Source: an uncultured Thermoproteales archaeon
GTDB lineage: Archaea; Thermoproteota; Thermoprotei; Thermoproteales; Thermoproteaceae
Length of the DNA: 64,000 nucleotides
Assembly (NCBI GenBank): GCA_938027595.1
Contig: CALJAK010000001.1
Coordinates: 62,001-126,000 of the forward strand
Direction: 5' to 3'
Shown: positions 4,953 through 17,506 of the stretch, in pieces
How the letters are laid out: each line of letters starts with the position of its first letter
Numbering within the stretch: the first letter of the stretch is position 1
Position numbers and translations under genes: made by a program
Notes under the pieces: generated by a model
The model's input: only the letters and a program-made list of their open reading frames with translations
Told to the model about the DNA's origin: nothing
Database searches by the model: none

Positions 4953-5165
4953 AAAAACGCACATTTTAACTACATAATAAACTTTTCGTCATTTCACCAT
5001 CGCTATACATTAAAATATATAGAATGTACACTCCATCGCGGTTTGGTGCATGTTATATGTTTACGTGAACAATATACAATGTATATGCTGTAGGTTACGC
5101 AAAACATTTATTTTAAATAGGAAAAAGAGCTCGTGCGTAGTAGGAGGAGAAATAGAAAACCGATT
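4953..5165. other. Intergenic region with a promoter for the secreted-protein island
   Basis: About 210 nt of A/T-rich DNA without a convincing gene. Near 5106-5118 the sequence ATTTATTTTAAATAG is a good TATA candidate for the next gene. A purine-rich TAGGAGGAG stretch follows at 5141-5149 and could be a ribosome-binding site for a leadered transcript, which is uncommon in this window. Confidence 0.5.
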
Positions 5166-5170
5166 GTGCG

Positions 5171-5710
5171 GTGGTTGTGTTGGCAGTCGCGGCGTTAACG
5201 CTAGCGACGCTGACGTTCACAAATGTCACGTATTGGTTGATAAACGCCACGCTGCCCCCGGCGATGAAGTACGCCGGTGGCGACGTCAATGTGGCTGGTG
5301 GTAGATACGTAAAGGTGAGTTATTACTTTGACCAAGAAAAGGGATATAACATCACTAGAATTTCTGTGGTGGGCTTCACCGGCGACCCAGTCAACTACAC
5401 AGATGTGATTAGAGTTTGTAACAGGCAAGACTTCCCCATAACTGCGAAGTTGCAGTATAAAGGCGTAGTCTCTGGTAACTATCACTCCTACGTACATTCG
5501 TTCTATGTATATTGGAATGGGACCAATAGCGGTGTTGGAGTCATTGGCGGCACTACCTACTCCCAATCGGACCCAGTAACTATACCCGCCGGGGGTTGTA
5601 GAACTGCGGCAGTGTACATACTCATAAAGCCTGACTTGCCGGAAGCCGCTAGAGACGGCAGAACTGTATTAGCCACATATCAAGTAGACATAGCGATGTC
5701 ACCAACGTAA
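5171..5710 (+). CDS. TasA-like small secreted protein (candidate pilus subunit); start possibly frameshifted
   Basis: A 179-residue secreted protein with a hydrophobic N-terminus (residues 1-16), then TFTNVTYWLINATLPP and a beta-rich body. The core (VCNRQDF, LQYKGVV, FYVYW, PVTIPAGGCR, ATYQVDI) aligns block by block with the protein at 16889-17506. This fold pattern recalls TasA/camelysin-type subunits, which include the archaeal bundling pilin AbpA of Pyrobaculum; that assignment is inference. From GTG 5171 the signal peptide lacks a basic residue. GTG 5166 reads M-R-W in another frame, and one extra base near 5175 would join it to give M-R-W-x-V-L-A-V, matching the start of the 8424 protein. 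Several N-x-S/T sequons suggest N-glycosylation. Confidence 0.65.
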   Translation: MVVLAVAALTLATLTFTNVTYWLINATLPPAMKYAGGDVNVAGGRYVKVSYYFDQEKGYNITRISVVGFTGDPVNYTDVIRVCNRQDFPITAKLQYKGVVSGNYHSYVHSFYVYWNGTNSGVGVIGGTTYSQSDPVTIPAGGCRTAAVYILIKPDLPEAARDGRTVLATYQVDIAMSPT

Positions 5711-5747
5711 TACATTTTTTATGTTTTTCACATCTTCCCAAACTAGC

Positions 5748-6977
5748 ATGAGAGAGAAGTTTAGTAGATTTGCATTACTCTTTTTCCCAACGCTAGTGTT
5801 TCTAATTGCTCTTTTATCTCCCAGCGGGGAGCACATCTTCGTCTCGGGCCCCTTGGGCGAAGTGCGCCTGGGCGAGTTGCCGCGTTATGTTGCATATGCG
5901 GAGGGGATGCTTTATCTCTACAGCTCCCCGTACGACGTTTGGATTTATCCAAGGGCTTTGGAGCTGCGTCTCTTTTACCCCACTCAAGTGTATATATCTT
6001 CCACCTGCGGTGCAGCTGGCGGCGTAGTTGGGGGGAGTGTCGGTAGTTATCGCATCGATTTGACCATCCCGCAGGGTTTCGAGGGGGTTTGTCTAATTAA
6101 TTTCACATCACCCCAAGGTTGGAGCGAAGTCGTGACACTTAGGGTCAAGGCGGTTGATTGGTACCCCGGCATTTATGAGCGGGTTGTAGTGACGTTGAGA
6201 GGCGTGGGGTGGCAGTTCGTGCAAGTGGGGACAGACGGCTGGCTGTACATATGGGAGAGACCAATGTCAACTATTCCGCTCTCTGGCTGTGTGGTTGTGT
6301 ACAACAAATCCGTCTTGATCCCGGAGGTGCTGCAGTATAGAGTTCTAGAAGCCCACGTGAGGCCAACGTTCCACACGCCCGGCGGCGGAAGCCAGCGTTA
6401 TGGAGTCTTCCTATATCTAAACGGCGACGGCGTGTTGTATATATATCCGGCGAAATGTCCGGTGGTGGAGACGCCGCTTTCGCATGCACCGCCTCCGCTG
6501 AGAGTTAGACTGGGCGTCCTCAAGCCAGAGTTTGGGGGTCCGGTTTTCGACGCCGCTAGAGTGAGGAACAGTACGATTTACACCACGGCGTTGAGAATTG
6601 TGAACTACAGCTTGGCTGAGGGCACTTTGTACAAATTACATCTATATACCTACTCTACTCCAGTAGGTATGTGGGGAGCGGCGATGAGGTACTGGTTCGC
6701 TCCCAACGTGCTTTTGACTACTGAAGTGTCTCTATTTGCGCCTCTAGAATACTGGGAGTTAGAGAGAGTGGGGGATTTTTGGTTGTATAATGCTACTGAT
6801 GGTCACTATTGGGTTTACAGCGTCGTCAAGCCTCGCTATACGTGCATGCCGCCCTGCGGCATTCCCACAGGTTGGACAGAGCCGTTGTATGTAGTTGTAG
6901 ATCCCGCTAGACAGTGGAGGGGGTGGCCGCAAGTGGTGGATGTGAGGAGAGAAGTACTACAGCCGTGGGGGTCATGA
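5748..6977 (+). CDS. Secreted or surface-anchored beta-rich protein
   Basis: Family not recognised. The 409-residue product starts MREKFSRFALLFFPTLVFLI, a basic tip plus a hydrophobic segment fitting a signal peptide or N-terminal anchor. The rest is aromatic-rich and beta-rich with many Tyr/Trp, a few N-x-S/T sequons and two Cys pairs, typical of thermophile cell-surface proteins. No C-terminal membrane helix is seen. ATG 5748 is preferred over ATG 5721 because the signal peptide begins there. Its stop overlaps the next start (ATGA), so it is co-translated with the small membrane protein at 6974. Confidence 0.65.
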   Translation: MREKFSRFALLFFPTLVFLIALLSPSGEHIFVSGPLGEVRLGELPRYVAYAEGMLYLYSSPYDVWIYPRALELRLFYPTQVYISSTCGAAGGVVGGSVGSYRIDLTIPQGFEGVCLINFTSPQGWSEVVTLRVKAVDWYPGIYERVVVTLRGVGWQFVQVGTDGWLYIWERPMSTIPLSGCVVVYNKSVLIPEVLQYRVLEAHVRPTFHTPGGGSQRYGVFLYLNGDGVLYIYPAKCPVVETPLSHAPPPLRVRLGVLKPEFGGPVFDAARVRNSTIYTTALRIVNYSLAEGTLYKLHLYTYSTPVGMWGAAMRYWFAPNVLLTTEVSLFAPLEYWELERVGDFWLYNATDGHYWVYSVVKPRYTCMPPCGIPTGWTEPLYVVVDPARQWRGWPQVVDVRREVLQPWGS

Positions 6978-7369
6978 ATTGGGTAGCGCTGTTGGTGGGG
7001 GTTGCGGTTGGGTTGGCTGTGGCTTTCGGTAGAGTTTACACAGAGTTGCTATACGCCAGAGAGCGGGGTCTGCCCCCCAGCGTCTTGTTTAGACACAGAG
7101 ACGTCCTCACGCCGTTTTTAGTGTTGGCGGGGGCTGCTAACATATATGCTTTGTGGATTATAGTGGCTCACGGTGGTGTGTTTAAAACTTCTGCAGTGTT
7201 GGGGTTGTTTATGCTGGTCGCGGCTCAAGTGTTGCAGTTGCATACGGCGATTAGACCTGGCGTTCGAGATTTAGAGTTGGCGTTGGCGTCTTGCGTGCCG
7301 TACGTTTACTTATTCGCGCTGTATTTAATTGCGTTAGTTACAGACTCGCACACTCTTTGGTTGTTCTAG
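6974..7369 (+). CDS. Small four-helix membrane protein, surface island
   Basis: A 131-residue hydrophobic protein with about four predicted transmembrane helices (residues roughly 3-20, 45-65, 72-90 and 105-125). Family not recognised. ATG 6974 is chosen because it forms an ATGA overlap with the preceding gene; the longer in-frame extension to 6914 only covers coding sequence of the upstream gene. Tight coupling to the secreted protein before it and the membrane protein after it suggests one membrane/secretion unit. Confidence 0.65.
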   Translation: MNWVALLVGVAVGLAVAFGRVYTELLYARERGLPPSVLFRHRDVLTPFLVLAGAANIYALWIIVAHGGVFKTSAVLGLFMLVAAQVLQLHTAIRPGVRDLELALASCVPYVYLFALYLIALVTDSHTLWLF

Positions 7370-7371
7370 CC

Positions 7372-7734
7372 GTGCAGCCCACGGAGATTTTCCTAGTGGC
7401 CGCCGCCAGCGGGGCAATAACGGCGCTGGCGCCCTCGATTTACTTGATCTACCGCAACAAGCCGATTACGCCTGTCACCATTGCCGGCGCGTTGAACTCC
7501 TTTGTGTCGGGGTTTGTGTTTGCGTTATTGGCGTTACAATGGGGGTTTTTCTACCTCCGCTTCACTTACCTACTAGCGTTAGCTCTGTTGGTCGCTTCGC
7601 TTGCATATAACTACTGGGGTATGTATAGAGACAGGTGGCAATTCTACCTCTTTGCAGTAGCTACATGGATTTACATAGTTGTGGTGGCTCTCTTGACGAG
7701 AGTGCTTGGTCTTGGTGACCCCTTCTTGATATGA
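7372..7734 (+). CDS. Small four-helix membrane protein, surface island
   Basis: A 120-residue membrane protein with four predicted helices (about residues 5-22, 36-56, 58-78 and 92-112), family not recognised. GTG 7372 follows the previous stop by 2 nt and is preferred to upstream TTG codons that would overlap the preceding gene. It resembles its upstream neighbour in size and topology, but I see no clear sequence identity. A paired role as membrane subunits of one complex is inference. Confidence 0.6.
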   Translation: MQPTEIFLVAAASGAITALAPSIYLIYRNKPITPVTIAGALNSFVSGFVFALLALQWGFFYLRFTYLLALALLVASLAYNYWGMYRDRWQFYLFAVATWIYIVVVALLTRVLGLGDPFLI

Positions 7735-7770
7735 CGACGTAAAACATAAAACTAACTACACGATTGCGTT

Positions 7771-8427
7771 GTGAATTTCACAATTACGTTATTGCTATTG
7801 CCGTTGTCCATGTGGACTTTTACATATGCAGTACCGCCCAACGCCACGGCTGTAATAAATGCCTCTCTGCCGCCCATTTGCAACGCCACTGGCGTGTATA
7901 CAGTGAGCGGTCCAGCCGCGTTTACAATCGCGTGTGTAAACCCATCCCCTAAACCGCATGTCGTGAGAGGTGGGTTAGAGATAAAGCCAATGGAGCCAAA
8001 GCCGCCCCAACTCACACCGCCCGAACCGCCGCTCTTCGAGTTAGCTATAGGCGTAACAGCCGCCGCTGGACTCAGTCACGTTCTTTCCAATCGCCGGGAG
8101 TTGTTACTAGCGCCGGCGGTTTGGCTTTTTAGAGTGAAAACTGCCAAAGCAGAAAGCCCCGAGAGGAAGAAGATACTACAGTTTGTGGAGAAGATGGGCG
8201 CTGCTACGTTGGCGCAGATAGCTAAAGCCGTTGGCAAAAGCTGGGGGTCCACTCAGTGGCACGTCTACGTGCTAGAGCGAGAGGGCAAGTTGAAGTCTGT
8301 AAAGATAGGCTCATTCACGTATTACTACACAAACCCTCAAGTGGCGGCGGAGGTGATACTGTCGTCGATAGACCCTCAGACACTCTCTCCAGAAGATAGA
8401 GAAAAATTGGAATTCATGGCATCGTGA
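7771..8427 (+). CDS. Membrane-tethered winged-helix protein with extracytoplasmic N-terminus
   Basis: A 218-residue protein with an unusual architecture. Residues 1-20 form a signal-like segment, followed by a short exported region holding NATAVINASLPP. A proline-rich stretch (PKPPQLTPPEPP) leads to a hydrophobic segment (about 90-120), then a C-terminal winged helix (about 128-190) with AQIAKAVGKSWGSTQWHVYV and a YYYTN wing. The winged helix resembles the soluble protein at 36586 (GAAQWHLYVLEREG). The likely topology puts the DNA-binding domain inside and the small domain outside, as in membrane-bound regulators of archaeal surface structures. A TATA-like AAAACATAAAAC lies ~26 nt before GTG 7771. 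The stop overlaps the next start (GTGA). Confidence 0.7.
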   Translation: MNFTITLLLLPLSMWTFTYAVPPNATAVINASLPPICNATGVYTVSGPAAFTIACVNPSPKPHVVRGGLEIKPMEPKPPQLTPPEPPLFELAIGVTAAAGLSHVLSNRRELLLAPAVWLFRVKTAKAESPERKKILQFVEKMGAATLAQIAKAVGKSWGSTQWHVYVLEREGKLKSVKIGSFTYYYTNPQVAAEVILSSIDPQTLSPEDREKLEFMAS

Positions 8428-10637
8428 GGCGTTGGTTAATTATCCTAATCGTTGTCGCCGCGGCGTTGGCTTCCTTCACGTTCAAAAACACTGCATATAC
8501 AGCCGTCAACGCCAGTCTGTCCCCAGTCTCTAAAGACTTCAACGCCTCGATCAGCCCGCTGGCATTTGGATATTTCCAATTTGCAGATGCATACAACGTC
8601 ACGTATTACCGCATGAAATTCATGCCGGGATGGACAGAAGTGTACACAATAGGCAAATTCAGACCAACTGGAGCCGGCTGGGCGGGACGGCTGGAGGTTG
8701 TCGCTGGAAACCGCGGCGGCACTTACGCCATAAGACTCGGGGACGTTGTGCAAATTACCGGGCAGCAAAACTCCGGCCCAGCGGTGAGTCTCCCAGCTCT
8801 GCTAGTTTGGCAAACTACCACTACACAACGCTATAGTATTCTAGCCAGAGCTCTATTCACACAAAGCGGAGTCACAGTCACCCAGTTGGTAAACTTCACA
8901 GCAGAGCCAATGCAGAAAAAAGCAGAGTGGACTTTCCACTGCCATACACAGACACACACAGACGACTTCCAACGCTGCACCACTGCCAATATAAACTTCG
9001 GTTGGGATAATGCTTACGCTCCCGCTGGCGTGACGTACAACACTTGGACGCGGGGGAATGCTAGCGTGGCGTTAGATAACGCCACTCGGCGCAGTGGTAC
9101 ACATTCACTACGTCTACAAGCAGACGGCACTTCTACAATTACATACGGCGTAGCTGCTTTAAGATGGGACCTCGGTGGGTTGGGTGTCACTACAGATTTA
9201 GAGATACAGGTATACAACCAATTAGTGTACGGCGATAAGTCAGTTGACGAAATTACCTACATACAATTCGAAGTAGAAACACCAACTGGAATTGTGTATC
9301 TATACTACGTAAGACTAACCAGCGATTGGGGGACTGGCCCAAGAACTACAGAAGTTTGGGACGTGTTCAACGGACAACGTGTGTGTACTAGCCTAAGCCC
9401 AACCGGATGCGGTTCGTCAGTGCCAACTGGACATCAAATACGTGTGTTGGGTCACGCTAGCGGCGATACTTTCTCCGCCTTCTTTCCCACGGGTTTCAAC
9501 TTGAAACGTGACGTAGGTATCGATGGCGTAGTTAGACGGATGGCTTTTGTAGTTGTAGACGGCAAGAACGCCGACGGTGCTGCCAAGTCTTGGTTTGACG
9601 ATCTCACTATGACGTGGCATAAGTGTCAACTACCTAGCCATATAGTTAGCTATACGGCTGGACAGCCGAACACCGGCGTTTATATCGCGTGGAGTACTCC
9701 ACTTGGTTCTCCGGCGTTAGTTACGCAAGTCGACGCCCGCGGTGGCGGCTCTGTCGCTACTGATTACGGCTACGCAATTGCGCAGTATAGACTACCCACG
9801 CCAATCCCGGCGGCTGGGACGCAGATCTCGGTACTGAGCAGATACGAGAGAGATAGCGCAGACGCACCAAACAACGTCTTTTTCATATCCATAGGCGTTG
9901 ACACAGACGGAAACGGCGTTGTGGACCGCGAGTATATATACTACAGAAACGACGGCACGCCGTTTGTGTTAGTCAGTTCGTTCATAAACCCCGGCCAAGT
10001 CATATGCCTAACTACATCTACATGTCAAAACACTATGCAGTATTTCTTCAAACATGTGGGCACAGCTGCCAGCGGCAATGACTACCAGTGGTCTATTTCG
10101 CTGGGTGAAACTCCAGGCGCCATAATCGGCGTGGCGTTCGGGGCAGTAGACGCCAGCGGTTCCGCGTCTGGCCTCGCAAACGACTTCTGGGTGTTTTGGG
10201 ACGATCTCGCCGTACAATACAGTGCGTGTCCTCGGCCGGCTGGTTGGCATGCCGGCGGCTACGTCTGGCAGTCTTACAACTATCTGCTGGTCACTGGAGG
10301 CGTGGCGTATGTGCCGTTGGTGGCTGGTGGGTTGACGTATGTGGCTAACTTCACCGGCAGTGGGAGATATGTGGTGGTGGGTTCTGGGTTGGGCGACATC
10401 TTCGGCGTGTATTGGAGCGGCGCTGGCGCTGGCTGTGTCTTTAGCCCGCCGCAAGCTGGAGCTAGATACGTAGAATTGAGACCACTAGCGGCGTTGGGAG
10501 ACATCATTGTGAGAGACGCATTTGGTGGCATGTTGTGGAGAGCCGGCTGCCAAACCACCGGCATACCCGCATACATAGCGTTTAAAGCGAATCCAGGCGA
10601 AGTGTTGAGAGTGTACTCATTAGAAGTTTGGGGCTAG
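8424..10637 (+). CDS. Large secreted beta-rich surface protein
   Basis: A 737-residue protein with a clear signal peptide (MRRW then hydrophobic residues 5-16), followed by TFKNTAYTAVNASLSP, which aligns with fixed spacing to the same region of the 5171 protein. The body looks like two concanavalin/lectin-like beta sandwiches. Each ends in a similar aspartate-containing strand: SWFDDLTMTW near residue 395 and VFWDDLAVQY near residue 595. A smaller C-terminal beta domain ends RVYSLEVWG. Many N-x-S/T sequons suggest glycosylation. No catalytic motif or C-terminal anchor is seen. GTG 8424 overlaps the stop of the membrane winged-helix gene, so regulator and surface protein are translated together. 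Confidence 0.7.
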   Translation: MRRWLIILIVVAAALASFTFKNTAYTAVNASLSPVSKDFNASISPLAFGYFQFADAYNVTYYRMKFMPGWTEVYTIGKFRPTGAGWAGRLEVVAGNRGGTYAIRLGDVVQITGQQNSGPAVSLPALLVWQTTTTQRYSILARALFTQSGVTVTQLVNFTAEPMQKKAEWTFHCHTQTHTDDFQRCTTANINFGWDNAYAPAGVTYNTWTRGNASVALDNATRRSGTHSLRLQADGTSTITYGVAALRWDLGGLGVTTDLEIQVYNQLVYGDKSVDEITYIQFEVETPTGIVYLYYVRLTSDWGTGPRTTEVWDVFNGQRVCTSLSPTGCGSSVPTGHQIRVLGHASGDTFSAFFPTGFNLKRDVGIDGVVRRMAFVVVDGKNADGAAKSWFDDLTMTWHKCQLPSHIVSYTAGQPNTGVYIAWSTPLGSPALVTQVDARGGGSVATDYGYAIAQYRLPTPIPAAGTQISVLSRYERDSADAPNNVFFISIGVDTDGNGVVDREYIYYRNDGTPFVLVSSFINPGQVICLTTSTCQNTMQYFFKHVGTAASGNDYQWSISLGETPGAIIGVAFGAVDASGSASGLANDFWVFWDDLAVQYSACPRPAGWHAGGYVWQSYNYLLVTGGVAYVPLVAGGLTYVANFTGSGRYVVVGSGLGDIFGVYWSGAGAGCVFSPPQAGARYVELRPLAALGDIIVRDAFGGMLWRAGCQTTGIPAYIAFKANPGEVLRVYSLEVWG

Positions 10638-10702
10638 TTCCGCGCGCGTTCCGCACGTACGTTCCGTAGTTGGTCTATATCTCTACGGATGTTCTCTATG
10701 TC

Positions 10703-11512
10703 ATGAAGTGGCTCATAGTGCTGACGGCGCTGGCGGCGGTTGCGTTAGCTAACGCTGCTGCTGTAGATTTCCACTTGTGGCTGAAGTGTAAAGCTATTGA
10801 GTTATATATCAACGTCACTGGAGTCAATTACACACTGCCTCAATGTGCGCTGTTGTTGAACTACACACTGCCTCCCGGCGTGCCGATGATCGGCGTGGGG
10901 GAATTGAAAAAGTTGAATGTATCCGACCCGCGGGAGGTTTTTGTACAACTTAGAGAAATTAGACTCGCAGCGCTTAGGAATTTGACGAGTCACGTGAACA
11001 GAGCAGTTTTGAGAGAGTATCACAAAATAAACGCGTCTAGAGGGCTTGAGGAAGCTGTTAACAACACGGAGAGGGGTATTAAAACTCTCGTGAAAGTAGA
11101 GCGGCTTTTGGAAAAAGTCAACGCTTCCGAACACGCGAAAGCAGTGAGACAAGGCGTTGTGTGGCTCAACCGCACTATAGAAATGTTGAAACTAAACGAG
11201 ACTAAATGGTTTGAAGTGAGGAATGAGACAGATGTGGAGAGAGTTATTGCAGATATTGAAAAAACTATGGAACACATACGGCGTTTGTTAGACCACTTTG
11301 AGAAGATTAAGATTGCACAACTCCATCAATTAATCTCGGCGAAATACAAAGCGTTAAACGCCACTAGAGAAATTTTGAGAGATTTAAAGAACGTAGAGCC
11401 GCAGTGGTGGAGAGAGATAAGAGACGCCGTCGTAAGAGGCGACGTAGAGAAGATAAGAGAAATAGCTAGGAAAGCGAGAGGAAACAGAGGGGAACCCCCT
11501 GGAAAGAAATAA
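10703..11512 (+). CDS. Secreted alpha-helical, sequon-rich protein
   Basis: A 269-residue protein with a signal peptide (MKWLIVLTALAAVALANA), then a short segment with INVTGVNYTLPQ and LNYTLPPGVP, followed by a long charged helical region likely to form coiled coils (about residues 75-250). About a dozen N-x-S/T sequons are spread through it. The TLPP element is like the one after the signal peptides of the 5171, 7771 and 8424 products. ATG 10703 is preferred over ATG 10670 because the box CTATATCT is ~26 nt upstream and the signal peptide begins here. It may be a stalk or periplasmic spacer; function is unknown. Confidence 0.65.
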   Translation: MKWLIVLTALAAVALANAAAVDFHLWLKCKAIELYINVTGVNYTLPQCALLLNYTLPPGVPMIGVGELKKLNVSDPREVFVQLREIRLAALRNLTSHVNRAVLREYHKINASRGLEEAVNNTERGIKTLVKVERLLEKVNASEHAKAVRQGVVWLNRTIEMLKLNETKWFEVRNETDVERVIADIEKTMEHIRRLLDHFEKIKIAQLHQLISAKYKALNATREILRDLKNVEPQWWREIRDAVVRGDVEKIREIARKARGNRGEPPGKK

Positions 11513-16888: not shown

Positions 16889-17506
16889 ATGGCTGAGCCT
16901 CAAGTAGTGCCGAAATTCAGGTCAGGCGATGAACTAGATGTGAGTAAAGAGTTGGATGTGAACCTAGAAGAAATGCAAGTAGAGCGCGAAGAGAGTGAGG
17001 AGGATAAAAGACGGAATAGGAGAGTGCTAGTGATAAACAGCATTTTAGCAATTGTGGCGCCGGCTTTAATTCTCTCAGCTACCGCAACTGTCCCAACGCT
17101 CGGCGGCGCGGCTGGCGCAATTTTACCAAGTTTCTCTAGCTTTTTCGCTACACAATTTGGAGATGGGTTTGAAAAATTTTCCATCCCCGCCGTCCCCGGC
17201 GAGATTGTAAATTATGTAGGAGTTTCTAACGTTTGTAACAATGGAGATGGGGAGATGGTTGCCATCTTGAGTTTTAAAGGCGTGGTTAACCACACTCAAT
17301 TTACTCAACACGTGAGGACTTTCTATGTGTATTGGGTAGATGGCCCTGGCGTTGGTTTTGTAAATGGGACGATTGTAGCTACTCAAGCGCCTGTGGTTAT
17401 TCCACCTAATCAATGTAGAGCTATCGGAGTGCGCGTAGTGGTAGATGGGAATGTAGTCGTAAACCAACTTTTAGCTAGTTATAGAATAGACATAGAAACT
17501 GGGTGA
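16889..17506 (+). CDS. TasA-like single-span surface protein (candidate pilus subunit)
   Basis: A 205-residue protein with an acidic, charged N-terminal tail of about 45 residues (many E/D/R), one hydrophobic segment (about 47-65) and a beta-rich exported domain. Blocks VCNNGDG, LSFKGVV, HVRTFYVYW, PVVIPPNQCR and ASYRIDIETG align in order with the protein at 5171, showing common ancestry. The long charged region before the membrane segment is unusual for a signal peptide. TATA-like ATTAATATTATTAC lies ~25 nt before ATG 16889. It is convergent with DAHP synthase (8-nt gap) and flanked by 53-nt direct repeats. Pilus or biofilm-fibre function is inference. Confidence 0.65.
   Translation: MAEPQVVPKFRSGDELDVSKELDVNLEEMQVEREESEEDKRRNRRVLVINSILAIVAPALILSATATVPTLGGAAGAILPSFSSFFATQFGDGFEKFSIPAVPGEIVNYVGVSNVCNNGDGEMVAILSFKGVVNHTQFTQHVRTFYVYWVDGPGVGFVNGTIVATQAPVVIPPNQCRAIGVRVVVDGNVVVNQLLASYRIDIETG

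Follow-up and report, generated by a model that had tools for sequence, protein, structure and literature searches.

A likely donor strand shared by the bundling-pilus pilin AbpA and a large secreted protein encoded in the same archaeal operon

Within the 64-kb stretch of DNA analysed here (the window), which comes from a hyperthermophilic archaeon, an island of genes encodes a pilin, several membrane proteins and a large secreted protein. We use the names abpA, E and F for ORFs 5171, 7771 and 8424, respectively. The features discussed below, with the evidence for each, are:

5171..5710 (+): abpA, bundling-pilus pilin, orthologue of AbpA; the true start is probably upstream (phmmer, AF2, Foldseek)
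5204..5269 (+): putative donor-strand segment of AbpA, ORF residues A12-K33, ATLTFTNVTYWLINATLPPAMK (strand profile and predicted strand)
5721..6977 (+): gene B, island protein with an N-terminal hydrophobic segment (position conserved in 12 relatives)
6974..7369 (+): gene C, small hydrophobic membrane protein (conserved operon member; membrane nature from sequence)
7372..7734 (+): gene D, small hydrophobic membrane protein, start set by orthologue comparison (conserved operon member; membrane nature from sequence)
7771..8427 (+): gene E, membrane protein with a winged-helix domain, probably a regulator; its INASLPP is not the shared strand (HTH_24 match, island conservation)
8424..10637 (+): gene F, large secreted adhesin-like protein with an AbpA-type donor strand (strand profile, operon conservation, hhalign)
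8469..8534 (+): putative donor-strand segment of F, A16-K37, ASFTFKNTAYTAVNASLSPVSK (strand profiles)
16889..17506 (+): H-like gene; its product combines an AbpA-like domain, which lacks the donor strand, with a charged N-terminus and a single membrane segment; candidate membrane anchor (acceptor only)

The order abpA-B-C-D-E-F is kept in 12 relatives from two genera, among them Pyrobaculum sp. WP30 and P. oguniense, with a few copies incomplete or interrupted, and F lies about 2.7 kb from abpA. Gene B gave no match to a Pfam family. In four loci B or F is broken by frame breaks (L063 7228-8534, L066 6594-7822, L070 7611-9844 and L151 8476-10560), which may reflect sequencing error, decay or phase variation. 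Moreover, a contig filed under a Candidatus Calditenuaceae MAG (L092 / L159, G240:C141) has an F gene that begins like the one at the Pyrobaculum-type locus L072, and this contig is probably misbinned.

ORF 5171 encodes the orthologue of AbpA, the pilin that builds the archaeal bundling pili of Pyrobaculum by donor-strand complementation. A phmmer search of PDB chains matched it to 7UEG with an E-value of 5.7e-51 over residues 2-177, that is, with full-length homology, and the 7UEG chain matches exactly the protein encoded at a locus (L067) which carries the same operon including F and H. The mature product was modelled by AF2 with a pLDDT of 86, and the top Foldseek match of this model was again 7UEG (TM 0.76). 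In the model, mature residues 4-15 (FTNVTYWLINAT) form a single strand which is followed by a low-confidence linker, so that the segment singled out by the first-pass annotation falls on the separate N-terminal strand. The bundling pilus of P. calidifontis, with AbpA as its pilin, was reportedly described by Wang et al. in 2022. Formation of donor-strand filaments and bundles by AbpA is established for the P. calidifontis orthologue only. Donor-strand complementation in bundling pili has been stated in two publications (PMC9715654, PMC9674648).

The signal peptide of AbpA is apparently split across two frames at 5133-5175: just 5' of the GTG at 5171, codons in another frame match the charged N-terminus of the orthologues. 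This suggests a one-base frame break at the 5' end of abpA, either an assembly error or a real mutation; the other relatives of abpA are intact. A second AbpA paralogue is encoded in the same genome about 10 kb upstream of the window (G000:C1:51153-51683) and carries a variant strand, NITYWDVYAIKPQ. Furthermore, several Thermoproteales genomes encode AbpA-like proteins of about 130 aa (L160-L165; HMM E-values of 1e-7 to 4e-11) without a signal peptide and without a donor strand.

The first-pass annotation had proposed that four secreted proteins, the products of ORFs 5171, 8424, 7771 and 10703, share a motif N-A-[S/T]-L-P-P soon after the signal peptide, and the underlying peptides (INATLPP, VNASLSP, INASLPP and LNYTLPP) are all found in the sequence. 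We assessed enrichment of the motif by profile searches of whole genomes and of a local set of 468 ORFs. The gapless similarity of the 5171 and 8424 segments turned out to be far above chance in searches with strand profiles, including leave-one-out searches. In a set of 2228 ORFs, a profile of AbpA N-termini alone recovered ten F orthologues with 38.9 to 11.9 bits, the best unrelated ORF scoring 5.3, and missed the F protein of ORF 8424 itself. With a combined AbpA and F profile in leave-one-out mode, all F proteins (12/12) were recovered, ORF 8424 among them with 24.4 bits (E 2e-6), and the best unrelated ORF, 7771, reached 8.0 bits. A 26-residue profile searched against 19 whole genomes of the family detected AbpA and F only, at 38.6 bits or more (next match 15.1 bits). 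Across 398 genomes of the phylum, the further matches were mostly AbpA-like and large F-like proteins of one other family; the matches also include the Calditenuaceae MAG contig. Alignment of F with AbpA by hhalign gave 97.5% through the N-terminus. Alternation of conservation between the two faces of the strand had a p-value of 0.05 in F and of 0.39 in AbpA; since it is not significant in AbpA, we left it out of the support for the strand reading.

For the other two ORFs, the likeness to this motif is due to chance, and the wording N-A-[S/T]-L-P-P is confined to one family of AbpA and F proteins. ORF 7771 scored 3.0 bits with the AbpA profile, and its 8.0 bits with the combined profile, although unsurpassed by any test-set ORF other than AbpA and F, correspond to an E-value of 0.28. 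In its 12 orthologues the motif reads YASLPP, TAHLPP, HADLPP, TVQLPH and similar, with no conservation of the N. ORF 10703 gave no match at all with the AbpA profile in the 2228-ORF set, nearly all Pyrobaculum-type genomes carry its orthologues at loci outside the islands, and among four N-termini of its family that were read, LNYTLPP is found only in the copy in the window. Enrichment after signal peptides and conservation in orthologues thus hold for 5171 and 8424, but not for 7771 and 10703. A docking strand common to all four proteins, for which the literal peptides had been the argument, can practically be dismissed: a strand in 7771 and 10703 is contradicted by both the orthologue comparison and the profile scores. 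The mixed filament of four proteins falls with it, as 7771 is a membrane winged-helix protein and 10703 is no island gene. Gene E (7771-8427), whose product is a pilus-operon membrane protein that combines a short ectodomain with a winged helix on the cytoplasmic side, is a candidate one-component surface sensor of pilus expression; the second family described below likewise has a related regulator beside abpA.

F is a protein of 737 aa in which a signal peptide is followed by the AbpA-type strand; as read from the sequence, it has no other membrane segment. When the strand was removed, Pyrobaculum-type F aligned to AbpA with an hhalign probability of 1%, within the range of column shuffles (one of 20 reached 3%). 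The possibility that F is an AbpA with an insertion was rejected for the Pyrobaculum family, where nothing alike is seen beyond the strand; three divergent F relatives give a weak hint of such likeness (hhalign 65%). The first-pass description of these proteins as having different folds accordingly applies to AbpA and the rest of F, whereas the N-terminal strand is common to both. AF2 modelled F with a pLDDT of 55 and an unplaced N-terminus, and Foldseek with this model returned low-TM beta-jelly-roll enzymes only, which can be read as "beta-rich" at most.

By hhalign (100%, E 3e-40), the ectodomain of F is homologous to giant proteins encoded at other loci of the same genomes. These giant paralogues have, as judged by eye, a type IV pilin-like N-terminus (MRGLSTVASF...) and lack the AbpA strand. 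Three of them adjoin pilin and pilus-assembly genes, and one such type IV pilus locus (L068) includes a T2SSE and two T2SSF genes according to Pfam. A type IV pilin N-terminus was not found in F, which has a signal peptide and the AbpA-type strand instead. From these comparisons, one ectodomain appears to be mounted on two filament machines via two different N-terminal elements. The recurrence of the ectodomain on type IV pilins with another N-terminus is the best independent argument that the N-terminus of F is a docking element.

The heads of F and of the giant paralogues have a history of their own. Over the 140 residues after the docking part, F proteins and paralogues fall into two clades with 100/100 support. 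By contrast, the last 140 residues group by genome, with five label changes, and a one-clade tree is rejected for them (AU p 4e-89). Within a genome, F and its paralogue are 80-95% identical over the last 125 residues, and DNA tracts of 310-980 bp with 84-94% identity join the two genes. A fifth pair spans two related genomes, with F in G031 and the paralogue in G030, and shares a 1.2-kb tract of 96% identity that extends beyond the stop codon into a gene H remnant; at least in that case, the transfer went from an abp island to the type IV locus. Homogenisation of the heads within genomes by gene conversion is therefore demonstrable. The giant type IV-pilin-like paralogues with heads homogenised to the F of their own genome are located at L068, L073, L077, L078 and L079.

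In a second, class-level family, the locus consists of an E-related regulator followed by abpA, a B-like gene and an F-like gene. The AbpA strand of this family reads N-I-T-E-W, without N-A-T, and the F strand of several members reads N-V-T-E-W, N-L-T-E-W or N-I-S-E-W; in two members it is weakly conserved. Over 15 strand columns, F is 48 and 51% identical to the AbpA of its own family and 32 and 40% identical to that of the other family, while F proteins are 30% identical across families; these values are family means over related sequences, for which we claim no formal significance. In this comparison, the F strand tracks the AbpA of its own family, its presumed partner.

Taken together, we consider it likely, judging from sequence comparisons, that the shared N-terminal strand serves as donor strand in the archaeal bundling pilus, with F most likely docking as a starter or tip protein. 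The first-pass idea of a donor strand thus survives for 5171, which is the AbpA pilin, and for 8424, which has the same strand on an otherwise unrelated ectodomain, and was given up for 7771 and 10703. Other functions of the segment have to be weighed against docking. It directly follows the signal peptide in two proteins of one operon, and might therefore be a secretion or processing signal, read by a signal peptidase or sorting enzyme of its own, and not a docking strand. This explanation is improbable, as conservation reaches the P-P-x-x-K, over 20 residues beyond the probable cleavage site, and the stretch in AbpA is a strand of the pilin. Moreover, the type IV-mounted paralogues of F are secreted as well and do not carry the segment, and a processing signal would not specially be expected to track the AbpA strand family by family. 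N-glycosylation, with N-A-[S/T] as a sequon common to surface proteins and N-V-T as a second one in the AbpA strand, was also among the suggested shared functions. It is disfavoured by the second family, in which N-A-T/S is gone from both proteins while the strand is kept, so that docking fits better; furthermore, the first Asn of the F strand is invariant even where no sequon follows it. We thus regard glycosylation as a very unlikely reason for the shared motif, although it may be a secondary feature of the strand.

Alternatively, F could be an ordinary secreted adhesin which received its N-terminus from abpA by gene conversion and does not dock at all. Gene conversion between paralogues does occur in these genomes, as the heads show, the two genes are close neighbours, and exchange of 5' gene ends between them could account for the likeness of their strands. 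However, none of the 12-13 F orthologues has lost the strand, and the second family retains it as well; its identity between F and AbpA of one genome is 46-63%, which argues against recent copying. An adhesin with a copied but idle N-terminus is therefore doubtful at best, and we favour docking of F through its strand.

A candidate for the opposite end of the filament is encoded directly after F in nine Pyrobaculum-type genomes. This gene, H, specifies a protein of about 170 aa with a charged N-terminus, one membrane segment (as read from the sequence) and an AbpA-like domain, which hhalign aligned to the AbpA core with 90.5% (E 1.3e-6; best of 30 shuffles 3.4%). The donor-strand profile found no match in H. 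The H-like product of 16889-17506 matches the AbpA core with 99.1% (E 1e-18) and the H profile with an E-value of 1.7e-10, and the strand profile detected no donor strand in it either. A gene H adjoining F was not found in the second genus or in the second family. These features would fit a role of H as an acceptor-only anchor for the AbpA strand.

In the assembly that we propose, the signal peptide would be removed and the N-terminal strand of AbpA would complete the beta-sandwich of a neighbouring AbpA, as known for the P. calidifontis pilus. The strand of F would insert into the groove of the first AbpA, which would place F at one filament end as a starter or tip protein. Strand exchange would then link further AbpA subunits into a chain, at whose end H in the membrane would take up the one AbpA strand left free. 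The same strand at the start of AbpA and F suggests that F caps the pilus. Since F has no membrane segment besides its signal peptide and H has one, F would be distal and H proximal, giving a donor-only tip (F), an AbpA rod and an acceptor-only base (H). We infer docking, terminal position and an adhesive role for F, and anchoring for H. The picture as a whole, a polar F-AbpA-H pilus with its strands pointing cellward and a head that was swapped onto type IV pili and homogenised by gene conversion, is offered tentatively and is somewhat more likely to need revision than to stand in full.

An operon that encodes both a putative end protein with the strand and a membrane protein lacking it offers named candidates for the two ends of archaeal donor-strand filaments such as threads and bundling pili, and with them a handle on how these filaments are oriented and anchored. 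If the proposed arrangement is true, one head would be presented by two unrelated pilus machines through exchange of a short docking element, and would clearly exemplify the modular display of adhesins. Homogenisation of the heads would then suggest a shared ligand, perhaps self-recognition, in archaeal biofilms; near-identical heads in each species are expected if the head mediates species-specific cell-cell recognition.

The closest known system is the bundling pilus of P. calidifontis, to whose pilin ORF 5171 is orthologous. In the literature examined, a scope outside which the original 2022 AbpA paper lies, we found no description of F or H as end proteins. Like type IV minor pilins with adhesive heads, the F ectodomain is found on giant pilin-like proteins at type IV loci of the same genomes; unlike them, F itself carries the AbpA strand rather than a type IV pilin N-terminus. 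Chaperone-usher pili with FimH-type tip adhesins are likewise donor-strand chains with an adhesin at one end, as proposed here for F. The tip adhesin of these pili is acceptor-only, whereas F would be donor-only, so that the polarity would be opposite; furthermore, no chaperone or usher genes were seen in the abp island.

Two other donor-strand systems offer nearer parallels for an end protein. In Bacillus subtilis, TapA is an accessory protein encoded in the operon of the pilin TasA, has a pilin-like N-terminal strand and donates the first strand (PMC9674648, PMC10151520); TapA is not conserved even within Bacillus (PMC10151520). Similarly, F has the N-terminal strand type of the rod pilin and is encoded together with it, but with 737 aa it has a large ectodomain, and the parallel to TapA is one of layout. 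In the Sulfolobus acidocaldarius thread, the co-transcribed Saci_0405 has a donor strand without an acceptor site and was proposed to cap one end (PMC9715654). Saci_0405 has a pilin fold, whereas F has no detectable one, apart from the weak hint in its divergent relatives. As precedents for donor-only end proteins, both TapA and Saci_0405 support the assignment of F as an end protein of the AbpA pilus.
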